Source: Thermoplasmata archaeon (lineage in GTDB: Archaea; Thermoplasmatota; Thermoplasmata; Thermoplasmatales; Thermoplasmataceae). Taken from it: a stretch of DNA of 37,810 nt. Where the stretch lies: positions 1 through 37,810 of the forward strand of contig JAJYUG010000007.1 in assembly GCA_021792655.1 (NCBI GenBank), written 5' to 3'. Below are positions 7,588-24,925 of this stretch, in pieces; within the stretch, counting starts at the first letter, position 1, and each line of letters begins with the position of its first letter. The notes beneath the pieces are model-generated. The model searched no databases. It was not told the origin of the DNA and worked only from the letters and a program-made list of their open reading frames with translations. A program made the position numbers and the translations under genes.

Positions 7588-8505
7588 ATGAAGATAGAGA
7601 CGCTTATTTATGGTATATATCCTAAGAGTGAAGAGCTTAGACGAAGCATCAGCAAGTATGAACGGGAGAAGATCGGGACACCTGAAATCGTAAAGGAGTT
7701 CGAAAAGGAGAAGAATGAACTCATAGAAAGGTTCAGTTCATCCGGAATCTCATATTTTTCAGATCCTGTATTGAACTGGTACGACATCTTCAGGCCATTC
7801 TCATTGATGTTCACCGGATTCGAGCTTGGACAGCTTACAAGATACAAGGAGACCAACACATTCTATCGTCTCCCGGTTGTACACGATGTGGGTGACAACA
7901 CAATCCTGTATGACAGGATCCTTGAAGGAAAGGAAAATCCGCCGGCTGACCTGTTTTCTTCATCAACAGCTAGTGGGCACCTGGCATTTTTCCCCGGCGC
8001 CCATAGCTTTTATGCAATGTCAGATATACGGAGAAATATTTCAGAAGAGGAGTTTTCAGCATTTGTTATAAAGAATTACATGCAGATAATGAAGAGATAC
8101 GGAATGAGAGGCGCAGTCATTTTTGACCCGGTGGAATACGGCGATGCTTCGCTGTCACCGCTGAATCCGTTGATAGAGAAATATCCCATTTACTTGGTCA
8201 CCACGGGAAAGCTATCAAAAAAGAACTTTGCAGGACTTAATGGAGATCTGGCCTCGATCATTTCAGACCAGATGCCTGGAAATATTAAGGTTGCCAGTGA
8301 AAACAGCAGGGTCCCCGGAATAAAGGCAATAGATGCCAGAAACACACTGATGGAATCAGCTGAAGAACTGAGACACCTGGTCTCCAGGATCGGTGAGGAT
8401 GCCCGCGTTGATAGGATCATAGTTGCAAATAGCGAGAGCTTTGATTTCCTGCCAAGGCAGATTGCAGACAGGAAGACAGAAGTAATGGCGGAACTGGGTG
8501 AGTGA
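7588..8505 (+). CDS. methionine synthase (MetE) N-terminal-domain-like protein
   Basis: 305 aa; YGIYPKSEELRR..., FDPVEYGD, C-terminal ESFDFLPRQIADRKTEVMAELGE typical of split archaeal MetE-like proteins; immediately upstream of a MetE C-terminal-like ORF. Confidence 0.75.
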   Translation: MKIETLIYGIYPKSEELRRSISKYEREKIGTPEIVKEFEKEKNELIERFSSSGISYFSDPVLNWYDIFRPFSLMFTGFELGQLTRYKETNTFYRLPVVHDVGDNTILYDRILEGKENPPADLFSSSTASGHLAFFPGAHSFYAMSDIRRNISEEEFSAFVIKNYMQIMKRYGMRGAVIFDPVEYGDASLSPLNPLIEKYPIYLVTTGKLSKKNFAGLNGDLASIISDQMPGNIKVASENSRVPGIKAIDARNTLMESAEELRHLVSRIGEDARVDRIIVANSESFDFLPRQIADRKTEVMAELGE

Positions 8506-9532
8506 TATGGCCGGAAAGAAACTTGAAACACAGGAAATAGGAAGCTTCAGGAAACCTGAATACCTCAGCAGGAAATTCCACACAGGCAGTGAGGGTGAGG
8601 TTGAGCCGCTCAAGGAAAGGGCAACTATTGAAACGCTTCAGCTCTTCAACAGAGCTGGCCTTGAGAATATAGGAGTTGGTGGAGAGATGTTCAGGTGGGA
8701 GATGTATGAGCATTTCGCCCAGTACATAACGGGCCTGAAGTTCTACGGTATGGTAAGATCCTTTGACAACAGGTATTACAAGAAGGGCAGCATTGTTTCT
8801 GAACTGCGCAGAACTTCAAGTCTTCACGGAGATGAGCTGGATTTCCTCCTGAGGAATTCGAAAGGAGAGATAAAGCTCCCCATAACCGGTCCTTACACAA
8901 TGATGGACTGGTCGTTCAATGAACACTATAAGGACAGGGACGAAGTGGCTGTGGCCTTCGGCAGAATACTGAACGAGGAGATACGGGACCTCAAGAAAAG
9001 ATGGGATATTGCCAGGCCAGGTGAAAAATTCCAGGTGCAGATCGATGAGCCTGCTACCACTACCCATCCTGCGGAAATGGATACAGTCGTTGAATCCATA
9101 AACAGGTCAGTGGAGGGGATAGGAGGGGCAGAATTTTCTCTGCACGTATGCTACAGCAAGGATTACCGTGTTCTATATGATCGCGTGCCTGAAATGAAGC
9201 TTCAGGGGCTGAACCTAGAATACGCTAACCGGGACAAGATTGTCACCGGGACAGGCGACTCCGATCGGCCCGGTTATAATGACATAAGATACTTCGCGGA
9301 GATCGAGGACAGAAAATTTCTCGGAGTCGGGGTAACGGATGTGCACATTGACGAGATCGAGCCAGTGGAAGTCATAGAGGACAGGATAAAATACGTTCTG
9401 GGCATAATCGATGATCCAGAAAGGATCAAGATTAATCCGGATTGCGGACTTAGGACAAGAAGCAGGGAGATCGGGTACGAGAAGCTCAGGAACATGGTAA
9501 TCGCCAGAGACCGTGTGGTGGAAAAACTCTAG
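8498..9532 (+). CDS. cobalamin-independent-type methionine synthase, catalytic (C-terminal) domain protein
   Basis: 344 aa; putative Zn ligands in SLHVCYSKDY (H-x-C), LNLEYANRD (E) and INPDCGLRTR (C); VGVTDVHIDEIEPVE; 8-nt overlap with the upstream gene. Confidence 0.9.
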   Translation: MSDMAGKKLETQEIGSFRKPEYLSRKFHTGSEGEVEPLKERATIETLQLFNRAGLENIGVGGEMFRWEMYEHFAQYITGLKFYGMVRSFDNRYYKKGSIVSELRRTSSLHGDELDFLLRNSKGEIKLPITGPYTMMDWSFNEHYKDRDEVAVAFGRILNEEIRDLKKRWDIARPGEKFQVQIDEPATTTHPAEMDTVVESINRSVEGIGGAEFSLHVCYSKDYRVLYDRVPEMKLQGLNLEYANRDKIVTGTGDSDRPGYNDIRYFAEIEDRKFLGVGVTDVHIDEIEPVEVIEDRIKYVLGIIDDPERIKINPDCGLRTRSREIGYEKLRNMVIARDRVVEKL

Positions 9533-12500
9533 AACTTCCACCTGTCCTTCTTACCGGCCACTGTCCAAAGCAGCACGGCTAATATGAACGCTGTACCACC
9601 AATTATAACCAGGTTTGCAATGAGGAAAACAGGATTGCTGTAGGATACTGTAACATAATTTGTCGAATATCCTGACCCGTCGTTGAGATGTATGGACAGG
9701 GCAACATAATATGTATTACCAGGGTAAATACCCGTGAAGAACATTGAATTCTGGCCCTGATTGTAAACAATTACGTTGTTTACGGTCCCGGGTCTGAAGG
9801 ACGTAGTGCTTGAGACGCTGACCTCATAGTAGGAGAAGTCTGTGCCGGAATATGGGCTCCACTGGAGATATAGGGTGAAAAACAGCAGGGGAAAATACTT
9901 CTCTATATTGAGGTTGAAATGGAAGACCTCAACGTGAACTGGACTCAACCTCTCAGGTATGGTTGCGTTCGTAGAGACGATCAAGGTTACGTTTGCTGAC
10001 ATATACAGGTCCCTTCTGTAATTCAGCGTATGGTTGCCGACTGGCGACTGGACTGAATATACCCCTGACGAATTGGTGAAGGAAAAGAATGTTGTATTGG
10101 ACACGGACACGTTTACACCCTGCAATCCGAAGCCAAAGTTGTAATCGCTCACTGTACCAGATATGATCGGGTTTTTGCCGGATTCTGTCAGATCGATCTG
10201 TATGGACTGGTTTTCTGCCGGAAGGAGTGACAGATTAAGGTAATATGGGATATAGCCGGTGCTGCTGACAGAAATATTCGCCTTACCAGGAGCCAGTGTC
10301 ACGGTATAAATTCCATTGTTCCCGCGTAAGTGGTTGCCGTTGGCCTCAACCGTTGAGTTTCCCTGGAACACGAAGATGGAAAGGTTGGCATATACCGGCT
10401 GCATGGTTATGGTGGCGTTCTGTCCGGCGGTGAATCGAATGGTATTGCTGTAAAAGCCGTTCCCGGAAAGTTCAAGCTGGTTGGTACCATAGATGGCACT
10501 GACAGTTGTTTTGTCCGGCCCCACTGGTACGGTGCCGTAAAAATTGTCCAGGATACCGGAAAACACAGGACGGTATGTTGCAGTGTAATATCCCTTAATT
10601 GTTATGTTAGTACTGAACATGGAAGGTATGTAGATAGTTCTGTACACGTAGATTGGATTGATAGTTGCGGTTATATTATAATATCCTCCTGTGGTAAAAG
10701 GATAGGAGTTTCCGCTAATCGGTCGGCCGTTTACCTCCCAAGATGGGCTTCCGCCGCTGTTCAGTGCAAAAGTTCCAGTAATCCCACCATTATAAGCCAG
10801 GCTGTATAATATGGAAGTATCCGAAATCGCGGTCCCTTTTATGAAGTGGTTGTACCCATTTACTGTGTATGAAACGTTATACTGTGACCCATAACGCGAC
10901 AGCTGGATGGAGCTGTAATTCTGCTCGGAGGGAATCTGGCTGTACCTTTCCATATAAACGCTGGAAACTGGATCGGTGTTTGACCCGTTTGCGACAGTTA
11001 CGTTGGAAAAGTATGCGCCTGCGAGGTTTGTAAGGTTGTACTCGGAACCAGTGATCTCTGCGCCGAACGCCGCATGATAGTCCCCGGCAAACGAGAGCAG
11101 GTAATTCAGGCTGAATGATTGATCACCAGCACTGGCGGTGATGTTTGTCCCCCTCATAACCAGGGATAGCGATACAGTTTTTCCGGACATGTTTGGCAGA
11201 GGATCTGACCCGGAAACCAGGACACCGTTCTGTTCTATCCTGTATTCTGCGCTGTACGTGCCGTTAAGGTCGCTTACCCCGGCCTTAACAAAATTTTCGC
11301 TTGATGAGTACTCAGAAACATAGTAAAACGAAGAGCCACTGGAACTGTTTTGATTGGAGCCGTTTCCGAGCGTGATGTTAGCGGTTACAGAAGTGGAGTT
11401 ATAACCGGAACTGTTAATGACTGCCACTGTGCCATAGGTACCCATTATCTCCATTGAGTCGTTGATAAGGGCACCTACGACCGGAGTTCCGAGTCCCGTT
11501 ACGGGATTCCAACCTGGAGCTGCATAGTAATAACCATTATTGCCACTGACAACCTGGGTCAGCGCTGATTTATACAGTTCTGTTCTTGATATCTGGTAAA
11601 GCATTGGGTTTATTGACCCCATGCTTTTTCCGTTAGCCTGGTCGAGCAGAGCGCCTATTGCTGCCCACATCGGGGTTCCAACGCTGGTACCGCCAACCTC
11701 CTTTGTGGACCCGCCCTGTATAATCTCCACACCAGTATCGACGCTCGCAACCATGGAAACATCCGGGACGCCCCTGTTATGAACCGTGGAGTTTATTCCA
11801 GGGCCGGCCTGCCAGTATGGTATAGCAAGTTTGCTGAACCCCCCTCCACTGCCATAGGAGTTACCACTAGCCATCCCGCCCCACGCTGACTGAGTCCAAC
11901 CCTTAGTCTTAGTGGGTTGATAAAGAGATGTGCCTCCTACAGCAGTTACATATGGATCCGACGATGGAAAGTTTACGGTAAGCTGGGAGGTTCCATCATA
12001 GGCCCCAAGATCTCCTGATGCTGCGAACACGGTAATGTTGGCATTCTGGGCCTGCTGGAAAACCGCTGATGAAGTTAGTATTGCCTGCGTTCCAAGTTCT
12101 GTCTCAGGCGTCCCCCAGCTCAGTGAGATTATATTCCCAAGCTTGTTGCTAATGGCATAACTAACCGCATTCAGGAGACCACTACTTGCGTCAGACGCAA
12201 TTATTAGGTTTATGTGGGCACCTGGAGCCATAGCGTGAGCCCATTCAACGTCGGTGGCAGTCTCAAGCGCCCAGCTGGCATTTGCCTGCTGAATTTCGCC
12301 GGATCCGGGTGGATATATTATGGAAAGGTTAATTGGCGGGAGATTCATGATTTGGTCAAAAGCCATTACATCGTACCTGATGGTCGGGTCACCGAACGCG
12401 TCCACTATGGCAATAGTCTCTCCCTTTCCGTTCAGCCCGCTAGAGTAGGCAGCATTATAGCCGTAGGCAAGAGCTATGTCTGATGGGATATAGGCAAATG

Positions 12501-12885
12501 GGACCACCATCTGCGCAGGTGATGAAAAAGGCTGGAACAGCATGTTTTTGCTGTCCTGAAAATAGCTTATGTTGAAATTTTTCTTCAGTATCCCCATGGA
12601 TTCCGTGAAACTGTTGATGATCTTCACTGGCACACTTGCCTGGATCAACGACCCGTAAGAAACGGTCCCAATCCGGCTTTCATTGAGATAATTCATCATC
12701 ATTGACCGATAAAATGTCCCCTGAGGTGAATAAATTGTGTAATTTATGTACCCAGATCCAGCTGCTGACTGATAAGTTATTACCGGGGTATTTGCACCGC
12801 TTGAAAGCCCTGAATCAATCCCGGCAAGGCCGGAGAATAAGAGCGCAGTGACCATGGCCAGCACAATGAGGGGTATTATTCTCAT
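9529..12885 (-). CDS. S53 (sedolisin/kumamolisin-like) serine-carboxyl peptidase, secreted, with long C-terminal region and terminal TM anchor
   Basis: 1118 aa; N-terminal signal; catalytic ALETATDVEWAHAMAPGA (E-x3-D), FAASGDLGAYD, VGGTSVGTPMWAA (Ser); C-terminal beta-rich repeats and TM LVIIGGTAFILAVLLWTVAGKKDRWKF. Confidence 0.92.
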   Translation of the reverse strand: MRIIPLIVLAMVTALLFSGLAGIDSGLSSGANTPVITYQSAAGSGYINYTIYSPQGTFYRSMMMNYLNESRIGTVSYGSLIQASVPVKIINSFTESMGILKKNFNISYFQDSKNMLFQPFSSPAQMVVPFAYIPSDIALAYGYNAAYSSGLNGKGETIAIVDAFGDPTIRYDVMAFDQIMNLPPINLSIIYPPGSGEIQQANASWALETATDVEWAHAMAPGAHINLIIASDASSGLLNAVSYAISNKLGNIISLSWGTPETELGTQAILTSSAVFQQAQNANITVFAASGDLGAYDGTSQLTVNFPSSDPYVTAVGGTSLYQPTKTKGWTQSAWGGMASGNSYGSGGGFSKLAIPYWQAGPGINSTVHNRGVPDVSMVASVDTGVEIIQGGSTKEVGGTSVGTPMWAAIGALLDQANGKSMGSINPMLYQISRTELYKSALTQVVSGNNGYYYAAPGWNPVTGLGTPVVGALINDSMEIMGTYGTVAVINSSGYNSTSVTANITLGNGSNQNSSSGSSFYYVSEYSSSENFVKAGVSDLNGTYSAEYRIEQNGVLVSGSDPLPNMSGKTVSLSLVMRGTNITASAGDQSFSLNYLLSFAGDYHAAFGAEITGSEYNLTNLAGAYFSNVTVANGSNTDPVSSVYMERYSQIPSEQNYSSIQLSRYGSQYNVSYTVNGYNHFIKGTAISDTSILYSLAYNGGITGTFALNSGGSPSWEVNGRPISGNSYPFTTGGYYNITATINPIYVYRTIYIPSMFSTNITIKGYYTATYRPVFSGILDNFYGTVPVGPDKTTVSAIYGTNQLELSGNGFYSNTIRFTAGQNATITMQPVYANLSIFVFQGNSTVEANGNHLRGNNGIYTVTLAPGKANISVSSTGYIPYYLNLSLLPAENQSIQIDLTESGKNPIISGTVSDYNFGFGLQGVNVSVSNTTFFSFTNSSGVYSVQSPVGNHTLNYRRDLYMSANVTLIVSTNATIPERLSPVHVEVFHFNLNIEKYFPLLFFTLYLQWSPYSGTDFSYYEVSVSSTTSFRPGTVNNVIVYNQGQNSMFFTGIYPGNTYYVALSIHLNDGSGYSTNYVTVSYSNPVFLIANLVIIGGTAFILAVLLWTVAGKKDRWKF

Positions 12886-12938
12886 GTGGCTTGCGTATTA
12901 CAAATCTAATTAATATAATATTTTATCACGTAATAGAA

Positions 12939-18722: not shown

Positions 18723-20566
18723 TGTTGGAAGGAACGGATAAGGGGCTGAGATCTCGTATAAAAATTGGCCTGGAAATACATTTCCAGGTGTCAGATGGCA
18801 AACTCTTCTGCAGGTGTCCTACGGAAACTACTTCTACTGAGCTTTTCAGATTTGAAAGGCGGATGATTGCAACGGCCAGTGAAATGGGTTCCATGGACAG
18901 GGCTGCAAAATACGAAATGGAACGGAACCTGCTTTCTGAGTACGTTGCCGGTGAAAACTCCTGCCTCGTAGAATATGATGAAGAGCCACCGCACGAAGTT
19001 GACGGGAAAGCACTGAAAGCTGCACTGATAGCTTCCCTTGCGCTCAACTGCAAGGTGCTGGACAACATATTCTTTATGAGGAAGGTCGTTGTGGACGGAT
19101 CAAACACATCCGGTTTCCAGCGCACCGCCATAATTGCCCTAAATGGGTGGGTTGCGACTTCAAGGGGAAAAGTTCGGATTTCAAGTGTCTCGCTGGAGGA
19201 AGATTCGGCAAGGCTTCTGGAAAATGGGGATGGAAGGAGCATATATTCTCTGGATCGCCTTGGCATTCCACTCATAGAGATTGCGACCGAGCCTGACATC
19301 ATTGATGAGCATCACGCAGTCGAGACAGCGAAGGCAATTGGGTATTTCGTGCAGGCAAGCGGTTTCTCGAGAATGACAGTCGATGCAATCAGGCAGGACG
19401 TTAATGTCTCGTTTGGATATGGCCGGGTAGAGATAAAGGGAGTGCAGAAACTTTCACTCATACCTGAAGTGATTTCATACGAACTTTCCAGGCAGGAGTC
19501 ACTTCGTGACATATCTGAGAAATCATCGCAATACTTAGACTTCTACAGGGAGGAACCGCAAGTTCACGATGTAACAGATATGTTCAGGGATACAGGATCA
19601 AAAGTTCTGCTTTCCAATATGGGGGTCGGCAATAGGATTTACTCAACCATTCTCAGGGGAATGGGCGGGCTTATGAAAAGCGGTAAGTACAGGATGGGGA
19701 AGGAACTTGCCGATCTCGTAAGAAGATATGGTGTCAAGGGACTATTCCATTCGGATGAATTGCCTGGCTACGGCATAACAAAGGAAGAGATTGATAGGCT
19801 CTGGTCGAAAACGAAGAAAGCGGATGAGGACGCAGTCCTGCTTATTGCCTGCCCACCTTCACTCTCAGAAGTGCTTTTCATGGAAATATTTTCAAGAATG
19901 GCAAAGTTACTTCAGATGGATCTGACTGAAACCAGATTTGCTGCTGATGACGGTTCGACTTTCTTTCTGAGGCCAATGCCTGGAAGGGAGAGGATGTATC
20001 CGGAAACGGACGTGCCGATCTTACGCATAAGTGACGTAACAATCCATGCAATGAGGAATGATGTCCCCTTGCCAATGGAGGAGACAATTTCCATGATATC
20101 CAGGGATTACGGATTATCAGCTCAGGATGCATACGTGATAGTTTCAACTTTCAGGAAGGTGCAGCTGGATAAACTGAGCTCGCTATACAAACATCCGAAG
20201 ATCGTTGCCAGGTTTATTATGCAGACATTGCCTGAACTGGAAAAGAAATATGGCAGAAAACTTGAACAACCCAAACTGACAAGACTCTTCGCTATAGCAG
20301 GGGAGAAGAACTGGATAAGGGAGGTGCTTGAAAAAGCTGCTGATTTAATGCTTTCAGGCGGACTGGACCCAGATGCTGTCGCGGGTGAGGAAGAATTATC
20401 CCAGCTCAGTGAAGATGAACTGAGGGAAATTATTGTGAAACTTCTCGCATCTTCAGAAAGTGAAACCAATGAGAGAAATATCATAGCCCGGGTCAAGAAA
20501 GAGACGGGAAGGCCATTCGACGCAGCCCAGGCAATGAAGGTGTACAAATCCGTGTCTAAAATATAG
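18722..20566 (+). CDS. gatE: Glu-tRNA(Gln) amidotransferase subunit E
   Basis: 614 aa, GTG start; KIGLEIHFQVSDGKLFCRCPTE, VVDGSNTSGFQRTAIIA, EEDSARL, DRLGIPLIEIATEPD, RQDVNVSF. Confidence 0.96.
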   Translation: MLEGTDKGLRSRIKIGLEIHFQVSDGKLFCRCPTETTSTELFRFERRMIATASEMGSMDRAAKYEMERNLLSEYVAGENSCLVEYDEEPPHEVDGKALKAALIASLALNCKVLDNIFFMRKVVVDGSNTSGFQRTAIIALNGWVATSRGKVRISSVSLEEDSARLLENGDGRSIYSLDRLGIPLIEIATEPDIIDEHHAVETAKAIGYFVQASGFSRMTVDAIRQDVNVSFGYGRVEIKGVQKLSLIPEVISYELSRQESLRDISEKSSQYLDFYREEPQVHDVTDMFRDTGSKVLLSNMGVGNRIYSTILRGMGGLMKSGKYRMGKELADLVRRYGVKGLFHSDELPGYGITKEEIDRLWSKTKKADEDAVLLIACPPSLSEVLFMEIFSRMAKLLQMDLTETRFAADDGSTFFLRPMPGRERMYPETDVPILRISDVTIHAMRNDVPLPMEETISMISRDYGLSAQDAYVIVSTFRKVQLDKLSSLYKHPKIVARFIMQTLPELEKKYGRKLEQPKLTRLFAIAGEKNWIREVLEKAADLMLSGGLDPDAVAGEEELSQLSEDELREIIVKLLASSESETNERNIIARVKKETGRPFDAAQAMKVYKSVSKI

Positions 20567-20638
20567 GATTTCCTGGTTTGTCGTTAACGAAAACTTCAGC
20601 ATATTTTCTAGAATATATTTGGTGCAGGTTTGAAAAGT

Positions 20639-20656
20639 GTTTTTTTGTTTTCTCTA
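20639..20656 (+). terminator. T-rich putative archaeal transcription terminator of gatDE
   Basis: tgtttttttgttttctct about 75 nt downstream of the gatE stop. Confidence 0.4.
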
Positions 20657-20741
20657 TCTAATCTGCAACCACCTCTTTTGGTGATTTTTTATTGCTCCCC
20701 TTTGCTCTCACATTGATAAAGGTAGAAAAAGAGTTTATCCC

Positions 20742-20940
20742 TTAACTCCTCAATTTTTTACATGATATGTCCAGGTCTATCCCAAGTTTTTTCGCGAGCT
20801 CCCTGAACTTTTCGGGATCTCGCTCATAATCCTTTAATTAATGCCTTGGAACAGCCATCAATTCAGATACAAGTACAAATATTATTAATTCACAAGTCTT
20901 AAAGGGGACCAAACGTCTCCATGATCTTGTCGCCATCCAT
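20742..20940 (-). pseudogene. decayed ORF fragment(s)
   Basis: Minus-strand reading gives MDGDKIMETFGPL(stop) and, after a further in-frame stop, LKDYERDPEKFRELAKKLGIDLDISCKKLRS(stop); protein-like composition but interrupted. Confidence 0.3.
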
Positions 20941-21035
20941 GTGAATTCAGATTATTTTTTTTTACATCCATTGATCTATGCTTGTTCGGAATATTCTAGT
21001 TACCTAAAGGATTTTAGAAGTAAAAATTAAGCTAA

Positions 21036-21053
21036 CGAAATACTTATATATAA
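21036..21053 (+). promoter_or_regulatory. BRE + TATA box of the accessory cassette
   Basis: cgaaat (BRE-like) followed by acttatatataa; followed by SD ggaggtg (21074-21080), 5 nt before the TTG start at 21086. Confidence 0.6.
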
Positions 21054-21085
21054 TTAACTCGTATAATAAATTTGGAGGTGAAAAC

Positions 21086-21619
21086 TTGGAGGCATATAAA
21101 ATAGAAAGACAGTTCTCTAGTGAATTTGTGAACTTGAATTCAAACCTTAGACTCTCTATTCCTGAAGAAAATAAAAGCAAAGTCAACATGGATAAATACA
21201 AACAGTGGGGGAAAAGTATAGTCGTTGTAGCGATAATCCTTCTAGCAGCTGGCGTACCCCTTTATGTGCTGGGTGAAATAGGCATGTCTCAGGTAGCTCC
21301 CATTGCAATCTCCGGCAATAATGCTCAAGTCGGGACCCCAAGTGCTGATTTCATTGCATTTGAAATATGGCACTTTGGTCAGTGGCCCACAATAACACAA
21401 CTCGCCCAAATGTTGACTGGTCCATTGATAGAGATTGGTCTTGGATTCCTCGCGCCTTATGTTGTGGCCATAGCATCGTTCATCATGGCAGCAATCTCTG
21501 CGTACGGTCTTAGTGCATCTAGTATAATATTTGGACTTCAATACTGGGCTGCTACAGCTTCTTTGGCACTTAATCCTTATGTCCTTGCAGGGTTTGGATT
21601 AGCAGTACTATCTGCTTGA
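21086..21619 (+). CDS. hydrophobic precursor-like membrane/secreted protein (candidate archaeocin precursor)
   Basis: 177 aa, TTG start with strong SD; charged N-terminal ~43 aa, one TM/signal-like helix (SIVVVAIILLAAGVPLYVL), then ~110 aa of hydrophobic Gly/Ala-rich helical segments with no Lys or Arg. Confidence 0.7.
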   Translation: MEAYKIERQFSSEFVNLNSNLRLSIPEENKSKVNMDKYKQWGKSIVVVAIILLAAGVPLYVLGEIGMSQVAPIAISGNNAQVGTPSADFIAFEIWHFGQWPTITQLAQMLTGPLIEIGLGFLAPYVVAIASFIMAAISAYGLSASSIIFGLQYWAATASLALNPYVLAGFGLAVLSA

Positions 21620-21651
21620 CGATTTGAACTAAACCTAGGTTATACCTAAAC

Positions 21652-22530
21652 ATGAAAATAGACATCAAGGGTTTGGAACTGTTGCTCTACTGTGCTTTCA
21701 TGGGCTTTATTGGGGAAGTAATTTTGCTAAAATCCCTAATTTTTCTATATTTGATGCTACTGAGTTGGATTGTTCCGTTTTCCATAGGAACACTTTTCAT
21801 ATTCTATGGTAAGAGACGACTTGATTCAATACTCAATCCATATACTATGAACCCTCTTTACGTTTCGTTAATAACTTCAGGTCTTGCTACTGTAGTCTCC
21901 TTTGGTCTATCGATATATTTCATTGCTTTCATAAATATTACACTCTTTGCTTGTTTTCTTTTGTTTTTTGAGTACAGAACCACAAAAAAATTGAAACTTT
22001 ACTCAGAATCTCAAGAAATGACTGAAAGGCTAGTCAAATTGCTCGGAGATCATTCAAAACAAAATCTGAAAATAGGAACAGAAATAAATTATATGGGAGG
22101 GGTAGCTTATGTTGGAAAATTATTGAGAAGGCAGGGGATTATCATATTCGACGAAGCTCTTTACAAGTCTCTAACGGAAAAAGAATTCGAATGCCTTCTA
22201 ATGCATGAATATTCACATTATATAAACATGGACCTCACGAAGATGGCCCTATCCTTTATGTTTATCCTGCTTCTATATTTGAATGCCTTTCTTATTGCAT
22301 TCAAGTTTCTTTTTTTGTCTAACAATATTTTCTTTATAATTGTGGCTTCTATCTTAGCACTGTTGGAAATATTTTCCTTACCACTCTTTCTCCCAAAAGC
22401 CCTCAATGTTATCGATCAACATCTGGAAAACAAGGCAGACAGGTTCTCAGCTATGGAAGTCAAGGAAGGATGCATGAAAGAATTCAGGGAAACACATGAA
22501 ATTTCGTTCCAGAGAAAGATTCTCTTTTAA
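21652..22530 (+). CDS. integral-membrane M48-type zinc metalloprotease
   Basis: 292 aa; HEYSH (HExxH, residues 185-189) and ENKAD (ExxAD, residues 259-263), with multiple TM helices. Confidence 0.85.
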   Translation: MKIDIKGLELLLYCAFMGFIGEVILLKSLIFLYLMLLSWIVPFSIGTLFIFYGKRRLDSILNPYTMNPLYVSLITSGLATVVSFGLSIYFIAFINITLFACFLLFFEYRTTKKLKLYSESQEMTERLVKLLGDHSKQNLKIGTEINYMGGVAYVGKLLRRQGIIIFDEALYKSLTEKEFECLLMHEYSHYINMDLTKMALSFMFILLLYLNAFLIAFKFLFLSNNIFFIIVASILALLEIFSLPLFLPKALNVIDQHLENKADRFSAMEVKEGCMKEFRETHEISFQRKILF

Positions 22531-22591
22531 CTTTTTAAGATGTAGGTAGGTGTCTTTTGCATCAAGTTTATGATGGAGTACAGGTGATTAC

Positions 22592-23686
22592 ATGAAAATA
22601 AAAATCTCAAGTTCGCAAGACAAAGTTTCGGGTTTGGCACAATCATACATCTTATCAAGTGTCTCTGAGCGATTCATAGTGTATCTCGTTGAAATTGTTT
22701 TTGTATTATCCCTCTCCGAGATCTTTGCTTCATTAGTAGGAATCAAACCATACCTGTTTAATGCCATGGTAAGTTACAGACTCGGGGAACTATCCTTTAG
22801 CTATTTGTTGTCAAGAGGGTTTATAATTAACACGGTCATATTTATCACGATAGTTTTTATCTACTTTCTGATCGAAGAAGTCTCCGGGTACGGGGTTGGG
22901 CGTATTCTTGCTAACAAGTATATAATAAATAGATACGTTCAGTCTAAAGATAGCAGGATTGTTGCACACGTTATACGGGCAGCGCTGAAATCTTTTCCAC
23001 TATTTGTCTTCGTAGATAGTATCTTAATCTTTAGGAGGAACAATAGAAAATTTCTGCAAAGAGCATCGGACGCTGCTCTAGGGTTTCTTGTCGTTAAGAA
23101 GAAAATTAGCGCTTCGAAGAAGTATGAAAATTTAATGGACTATTTGAAGTTATATGTTTTGGGAGCTTCTATAATGTATTATTCGTTGTTTATTTCGACA
23201 TTTATTATATCTTGGATGATTGTGCCAATGGTAACGTCAACCAGTGGAACGGGACAGTCCAGAGTGAATTTTTTAAATGAATTTGTATCTATACTGTCTC
23301 AGAATATACCGTTTGATTTCTATCTTGTTACAGGTGGAATGACGCTGTCTTTCGGTTCGTTGCTTTTTTTAGTTGAATCGTTGGACTCTGAGAATGCAAT
23401 TCTAGTGAGCATACTAAAGTCACCTTCTTCAGTCAATTTCATTAATGGAGTACTTCCTCAATTCATTCCGGAATCCCTAGGTTATGTTTTTGGGCTATCT
23501 GCGGCATTTTCGATAGCTAGCCTCATTATAAATTTCGTGCAATCAATGATTAATAAACAGGCTTCATTGTCATTCGCGAATGCTTCAGCACGTAATTTAA
23601 AGTATGCTTTAGCCTCAGTAAGCATATCCCTCGTCCTTTTGGTTTTCGCAGCATGTATCGAAGCGTCCCTCTTCCTATTAGGCTGA
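22592..23686 (+). CDS. polytopic membrane protein; RDD-like N-terminal half and SpoIIM/DUF95-like C-terminal half
   Basis: 364 aa; GVGRILANKYIINRYVQ...AALKSFPLFVFVDSILIF...QRASDAALGFLVVKK resembles RDD; INGVLPQFIPESLGYVFGLSAAFSIASLI resembles the SpoIIM/DUF95 signature region; SD aggtga upstream of ATG. Confidence 0.6.
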   Translation: MKIKISSSQDKVSGLAQSYILSSVSERFIVYLVEIVFVLSLSEIFASLVGIKPYLFNAMVSYRLGELSFSYLLSRGFIINTVIFITIVFIYFLIEEVSGYGVGRILANKYIINRYVQSKDSRIVAHVIRAALKSFPLFVFVDSILIFRRNNRKFLQRASDAALGFLVVKKKISASKKYENLMDYLKLYVLGASIMYYSLFISTFIISWMIVPMVTSTSGTGQSRVNFLNEFVSILSQNIPFDFYLVTGGMTLSFGSLLFLVESLDSENAILVSILKSPSSVNFINGVLPQFIPESLGYVFGLSAAFSIASLIINFVQSMINKQASLSFANASARNLKYALASVSISLVLLVFAACIEASLFLLG

Positions 23687-23813
23687 TGATTTCGAATAAG
23701 ACCTTGGATCTGCACTGGTCTTTCCCGATCGCAAAAATATCGCGAGAAATGTTGCAATATTCCTTAAAGACTGCCATCATTCTCTGATTTTTCTTGTTTA
23801 TTTCGGGAAAAAT

Positions 23814-24780
23814 CTATGGTTTACGGTATCCCTGTAGGATTTTTCGAGCATGAACAATGTATCCAAAGCATGCAAACATGAACTTCACCCTCACCCTTCT
23901 TTGTACAAGGGTGACTATTACATGTGAAAAATGAAACAGCCTCTTCATAACAGCATACGGGTATTCTAGCATGGACCGTTTCCTGGATATCCTTCGGTTT
24001 CTTCTGAGGGATTGAATGGACAGTTTATGATTCTTCACTGCCTTTTCCCTTGTATCATCAATGCCCATTGGATGGGATCCGAAGTATCTCTTGTCCCGGT
24101 ATACCGTTGTTCCACCCTTTGAAAGATCGATTCTTGTGTCATGATCCTTTTCTGTGGTGACAACGTAAGATCGGATCACAGGGGAAGGATTGTTGTCATC
24201 AACGAGGCTTTGACCCTTGTACCCGAAGAATGTCCCATTGTTCTTTCTGGTGAACGGACCATCCTTCGATCTCCTTGTTTTACCTTCAGACCCGGGTTCT
24301 TCATGCTTTTGATGCCCAGGAGCGGAAGTGATGAAAAGACATCCTGAGCTGGTCTCTCCTTGACTCAGATGACTTTCGCCCCATTTGATGCTGAAGCTCA
24401 TTCCATATTATAAGATCCCTGCCTGTTTTCAACAACCGTTCCCTGAAGTATCATATGGTCTTTGCATCCGGCAACAGATCGGGATAATCCAGGAGGCCCA
24501 TGAATGATATCCTATCGCGTATGTGTGTTTCTGCCTGTTCATCAACTATGTTGAATATGCTCTGTAGAAAGAGGACTTTGACTACGGTAACAATTGGAAT
24601 GTTTGGTTCTCCTCCTTTGTCTGTATGATAGTGGTACAGATCATTCAGGACTCGAGGAAAGGCAGTCCAGTCTATTACAGCCTTCGCGAATGCAAAGGGA
24701 TTTTTGATTGCATTTGTCCTGTACTTCTCATTTATTGCCTCGTCAAGAAGACTGCTCATGCAGTAACATGGCTGTTTCAT
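23814..24780 (-). pseudogene. IS5-family (DUF772 / DDE) transposase, disrupted
   Basis: N-terminal piece (24451-24780) MSSLLDEAINEKYRTNAIKNPFAFAKAVIDW...DLLPDAKTI; stop TGA at 24453-24451 then readable YFRERLLKTGRDLIIWNELQHQMGRK in the same frame; C-terminal piece (23814-24401) FITSAPGHQKHE...KTRRSKDGPFTRKNNGTFFGYKGQSLVDD...RISRKRSMLEYPYAVMKR in another frame. Confidence 0.88.
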
Positions 24781-24925
24781 GAATAAATATTATTGTTACC
24801 TGATCTGATCATGAAGCGGAGTTTTTGGAAATCCTCATCAGGAATTTCGAGATTCAGAAGTGATTAAATTGTATGGGTTACGCGATCTTATGTACAGCCT
24901 GAAAAGAGCGAAATATTCGAGGAAA

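Follow-up and report, generated by a model that had tools for sequence, protein, structure and literature searches.

A three-gene cassette with a constant leader and an exchangeable core and protease: a candidate bacteriocin-like antagonism system of acidophilic Thermoplasmata

What is the function of an archaeal protein whose positive charges all lie at one end? The window, by which we mean the whole 37,810-nt stretch of DNA analysed (contig JAJYUG010000007.1 of a Thermoplasmata archaeon, from a draft genome that is 89% complete in 84 contigs), encodes such a protein, here called P. A sequence-only reading had described it as a prepro-peptide with a charged leader, one helix and a hydrophobic remainder, resembling a membrane-active secreted peptide, and had named circular bacteriocins among the systems for comparison. 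P begins at a TTG codon, a start supported by a Shine-Dalgarno sequence, a TATA-like box and the N-termini of relatives, which begin at the same alignment column with an invariant M1. The elements of the gene are:

21043..21053, + strand: TATA-like promoter element CTTATATATAA, read off the sequence, by consensus only
21074..21080, + strand: Shine-Dalgarno sequence GGAGGTG, 5 nt ahead of the TTG start of P
21086..21619, + strand: P, putative precursor, open frame of 177 aa, with relatives in 20 of 77 family genomes
21086..21214, + strand: residues 1–43, charged leader with all 8 Lys/Arg
21215..21271, + strand: residues 44–62, hydrophobic helix with a conserved GVP motif, predicted by the positive-inside rule to be an N-in signal anchor
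21272..21346, + strand: residues 63–87, variable disordered linker reaching the leader/core boundary (from AlphaFold and the divergence of array pairs)
21347..21616, + strand: residues 88–177, core without Lys/Arg, five predicted helices

The claim that all Lys/Arg residues fall within the first ~43 aa holds: the last is K43, followed by 134 residues without any. Among 15 window genes tested this is the longest such run, the next being 94 in a secreted peptidase (9529-12885), and the Nuo membrane subunits reach 77. Depletion is a trait of the P family, with rare exceptions: beyond the helix, 22 members together have 16 Lys/Arg in 2,581 residues. In the loci examined, mechanical calling gave 579 ORFs of 150 aa or more, among which the P family has most of the longest Lys/Arg-free runs. 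Low Lys/Arg content is also seen in other proteins that this lineage secretes, one in the same set having a free run of 208, so depletion marks exposure outside the cell and not, by itself, membrane activity. The Lys/Arg-free stretch is thus real, but the polarity thought unusual is partly general to secreted proteins of this lineage. The peptidase-like protein at 9529-12885, whose identity was judged by eye, has 1118 aa and 3.8% Lys/Arg, and its gene faces a primase-like gene at 12891.

Charge and helix topology support a location of P outside the cytoplasm; the core is predicted to sit on the outer side of the membrane because the positive residues precede the helix that ends the leader. AlphaFold places the helices of P, with modest confidence (pLDDT 65), at residues 88–95, 103–116, 120–140, 144–157 and 164–176, after a disordered linker in which pLDDT falls below 50 at residues 70–87, near where array pairs start to diverge. 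The shorter core of locus L053 was modelled as five short helices (pLDDT 82, pTM 0.72) and had no PDB match in Foldseek; the cores of circular bacteriocins are compact saposin-like or helical bundles of four or five helices. Conserved at the start of the core is the motif FEIWHFGQWP (residues 92–101), of which the family form is YExxHWGxxP, and family cores have short hydrophobic C-terminal ends such as AIAAF, AIVAY and VIAW.

Two partner genes, which the sequence-only reading had not included, carry most of the functional evidence. Together with P they form a three-gene cassette on one strand, in the order P, M48 metalloprotease, and a membrane protein, R, that combines RDD-like and SpoIIM (DUF95)-like halves:

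21652..22530, + strand: M48-family membrane metalloprotease, 292 aa (Pfam PF01435, E 1.1e-7)
22592..23686, + strand: R, multi-pass membrane protein, 364 aa, N-terminal half RDD-like, C-terminal half SpoIIM/DUF95-like

The window M48 has the zinc motifs HEYSH and ENKAD. PF01435 was matched by 15/15 of its relatives, and HExxH is found in 27 of 28 cassette M48 copies, the remaining one being a paralogue in L049 (7364-8368) that lies between P and a second M48 and is a possible pseudoprotease partner. Domain assignment of R comes mainly from relatives, 8/14 of which match PF01944 (best E 2.9e-9) and 6/14 PF06271. Window R alone gave no Pfam match at the first scan, and its match to PF01944 is weak (23186-23665, E 1.4e-4, 21.5 bits, under the curated cut-off of 26.9). 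Several genomes also carry solo M48 genes (L157:3895-4878, L158:3827-4810, L160:3312-4340, L161:3309-4325), a subfamily in which a gene for a 222-aa protein comes next; it is probably a housekeeping relative of the cassette M48.

Leader and core behave as separate modules. In 22 cassettes, several sharing a genome, leader identity was barely correlated with core identity (r 0.18), whereas M48 identity followed core identity (r 0.65; partial r 0.64 with the leader removed; permutation p 1e-4). R identity, compared in 14 cassettes, followed the leader (r 0.90) more than the core (r 0.30). Within one array, a pair of copies is 97% identical in the leader and 31% in the core; for L107 and L108 the figures are 91% and 23%, and in the converse case, L147 versus L107, leaders are 51% and cores 75% identical. 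The boundaries are sharp in DNA: L106a and L106b are 90–100% identical over the leader, ~50% over core and M48, and 98–100% over the first ~180 nt of R, with a similar profile for L111 and for L107/L108. The conservation analysis that could have gone against the prepro-peptide anatomy therefore supports it strongly, as a division is found in both protein and DNA; conservation breaks at about residues 84–88, however, and not at the helix. Homologous recombination in the two flanks would exchange core and M48 as one module.

The association of M48 with the core is not exclusive: with the core removed, a correlation of 0.41 between M48 and leader is left. Physical linkage alone may account for part of the association. 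Among all pairs compared, M48 identity above 40% was never seen without core identity above ~45%; some similar cores (65–75%) are paired with dissimilar M48s (27–32%). A genome of another genus, G032, carries a core 78% identical to that of the window module and an M48 whose first 41 residues are 73% identical, in a copy that may be decayed and whose contig ends inside M48; the sequence preceding this core is unlike the window leader. Peptide signalling, with the variable core as a strain-specific pheromone that M48 releases or degrades, would also fit the leader/core architecture, the dedicated protease and the high diversity. It seems improbable all the same, as 75–90 hydrophobic helical residues are large for a pheromone and the conserved gene set holds no receptor or regulator gene.

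In the window the cassette lies in an inserted segment between a GatE-like gene and the nuo operon:

20567..24836, no strand: inserted segment of ~4.3 kb, cassette plus IS remnant
23814..24780, - strand: broken IS remnant (DUF772/DDE transposase in two frames), adjoining the cassette at the end of the insertion

The gap between GatE and NuoA is 139–239 nt in three congeners (G001, G002 and G003) and ~4.4 kb in the window genome; alignment to G001 stops at 20566 and restarts at 24837. GC content is 37% in the segment versus ~46% in its surroundings. P, M48, R and the IS remnant, which is not part of cassette function, make up the whole island. We take the insertion to be recent. Two further cassette remnants with an open M48 frame occur in the same genome.

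Profile searches of the window genome's GTDB family found P in the stated 20 genomes, from 10 of 19 genera, and R likewise in 20/77 genomes. When 390 genomes sampled from the phylum beyond this family were searched, R had one weak match; searches of cores and R against plasmids returned nothing meaningful, and R was absent from viral contigs. So far the cassette is known from acid-loving archaea of its own GTDB family alone. The gene order is fixed in nearly all complete copies, with P divergent at two loci (L051 and L059). Ferroplasma acidarmanus Fer1 has a complete cassette (L053) and a solitary R interrupted by two stops (L054), and E-plasma scaffold KI542675 carries two cassettes. Cassettes are often multi-copy or in tandem arrays, although some copies sit at contig ends; the arrays at L106, L111 and L146 consist of P-M48 pairs and truncated R copies, with one complete unit adjoining. 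Where P or R is broken, M48 frames can remain open, as at L063 and L153 in the same genome as the window copy (G000:C13, G000:C72), in the second copy of L056 and at L166, a count of orphan M48s that is partly confounded by the solo housekeeping-like subfamily in the same genomes.

Genes that are gained, lost and left to decay in this way are typically those of biological conflict. Two other readings do without a secreted weapon. P could be an ordinary membrane protein that yields no peptide, its partners being HtpX-like quality-control proteins: HtpX-like M48 proteins are widespread in these genomes, and other secreted proteins have Lys/Arg-poor stretches too. Sharp DNA module boundaries, a hypervariable core, arrays and absence from three congeners are not how housekeeping genes behave, and we give this reading very little credence. 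A selfish, toxin-antitoxin-like addiction module, with P a never-exported membrane toxin and M48 its protease antidote, would account for a cassette that is compact, patchy, inserted and multi-copy with decaying copies; as it leaves the conserved SpoIIM-domain R and the combination of conserved leader and hypervariable core unexplained, we consider it very improbable.

The cassette is, we think, probably a chromosomal bacteriocin-like antagonism system of acidophilic Thermoplasmata, with an exchangeable core and M48, a constant R, and M48 acting in immunity or maturation. In the scheme that we infer, P would be a ribosomally made precursor brought to the membrane by its charged leader and signal-anchor helix; the core (~75–90 residues, variable, Lys/Arg-free, multi-helix) would be secreted and cleaved free, and would be toxic to related archaea by acting on their membranes. 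R would be the constant export or maturation protein paired with the leader, a role assigned because SpoIIM proteins are needed for the production or export of circular bacteriocins. The core-specific M48 would move with the core as one exchangeable module and confer self-immunity by destroying its cognate core. A conserved front whose back half is exchanged along with a protease gene is, at the level of sequence, what an arsenal evolving to target close relatives would look like.

The most likely role for M48 is self-immunity; the chief rival is maturation specific to the core. We favour immunity because M48 changes with the core while leader and junction motif stay constant, because cassettes with a broken P or R can keep their M48 frames open, and because a small cationic membrane protein takes the M48 slot in sister cassettes. 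That replacement was seen at L172, L173, L182, L183, L113 and L175. The active site of an M48 protease usually lies on the cytoplasmic side, which, with the core predicted outside, counts against immunity and antagonism. Counting against antagonism as well, no sequence or fold homology to a known toxin or bacteriocin was detected.

If M48 instead belonged to the same antagonism system as its maturation enzyme, cutting off the leader and perhaps joining the ends of the core, the cassette would be an archaeal pathway like that of circular bacteriocins with its own protease. M48 lies directly 3′ of P in nearly every complete copy, the core C-termini are short and hydrophobic, and the circular-bacteriocin protease and cyclase are unknown, with M48 genes noted in two bacterial clusters (PMC8659200). 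M48 varies with the core, however, whereas leader and junction motif do not; sister cassettes have a similar precursor without M48, and M48 persists where P is broken. We judge this version unlikely.

The sister cassettes (L172:644-4039, L173:1704-3941, L182:4041-5063, L183:2627-4353) encode another Lys/Arg-free precursor and no M48. After the precursor comes a small cationic two-helix membrane protein, present twice in L183; L172, L173 and L183 also have a gene of RDD-SpoIIM type, or a fragment of one. L113 has a small cationic protein (2531-2776) and a further P-like protein (7814-8344) ~5 kb from R. Beside R genes, L060 (168-1145) and L113 (2976-3959) encode membrane proteins weakly similar to S24/S26 (signal-peptidase-like), possibly the leader peptidase of that branch.

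Few archaeal antimicrobial peptides are known. We found none from Thermoplasmatales in the literature, where an earlier listing among candidate archaeocins (Makarova et al. 2019) is possible, and a published antiSMASH and BACTIBASE search of an 'E-plasma' genome returned nothing (PMC10354927). It is quite possible, though we put it forward tentatively, that the cassette founds a new class of archaeal bacteriocins: recombination would swap core and protease together, the leader and the RDD-SpoIIM exporter would stay constant, and the protease would be either warhead-specific immunity or the missing maturation enzyme of circular bacteriocins. It offers a defined three-gene unit, complete in a named strain (L053 of Fer1), for work on SpoIIM-linked peptide maturation and immunity, and a putative leader-constant, warhead-variable arsenal in archaea with evidence of module exchange at the DNA level.

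How does the cassette compare with known systems? Its M48 resembles HtpX/Ste24 peptidases in HExxH, the downstream zinc motif and membrane helices, and differs in evolving fast, in its fixed P neighbour and in changing between copies with the core. Like the putative product of the cassette, sulfolobicins (SulA/SulB/SulC) are antimicrobial proteins from thermoacidophilic archaea (PMC10117752, PMC3718332); the parts of these descriptions available to us, on which the comparison rests, mention no M48 or SpoIIM partner.

A close architectural parallel is that of circular bacteriocins, which are cyclised head to tail through an N-to-C peptide bond (enterocin AS-48, circularin A, acidocin B) and also have a leader, a hydrophobic multi-helix core with short helices and hydrophobic C-terminal ends, and an adjacent SpoIIM/DUF95 membrane protein; their group ii is also weakly charged. 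SpoIIM is the class-defining partner (PMC13289728; PMC8659200), required for production or export (PMC7132975, PMC6131525), and the domain is present here at the family level, with window R itself below the curated cut-off. Unlike circular bacteriocins, the cassette has a core nearly free of Lys/Arg, a longer leader (~85 residues) with a membrane helix of its own, a SpoIIM domain joined to an RDD-like one, and an archaeal host. The M48-type cassette also lacks an ABC transporter, none being dedicated to it in the window island or part of the conserved gene set of relatives, and a small cationic immunity protein, the form described for circular bacteriocins (PMC6131525); a similar protein occurs in sister cassettes only. 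Searched against Pfam and NCBIfam, 25 cores gave no match, BacteriocIIc_cy and TIGR03651 included. Since cores, transporter and immunity protein all depart from the class, we do not file the cassette as a circular bacteriocin.

P and core profiles gave only chance hits to PDB sequences, Foldseek with the full P model and the L053 core found nothing below E 1, and the relationship to circular bacteriocins suggested earlier was not borne out by Pfam, NCBIfam, PDB sequences or fold, leaving that interpretation as a whole partly supported. Resemblances to AS-48 and acidocin B seen by eye were rejected as evidence of homology: against shuffles AS-48 was only marginal (5/1000), and acidocin B and plantacyclin did not stand out; the sequences used had been confirmed against PDB.

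Polymorphic toxins differ in carrying an enzymatic domain where the cassette has a small hydrophobic core, and in their trafficking domains, of which no known one is present here; the cassette also has an M48 neighbour, and P and its cores matched no known toxin domain family in Pfam or NCBIfam. What the cassette shares with them is a conserved delivery N-terminus, an exchangeable C-terminal module together with its cognate neighbour, and truncated tandem copies.
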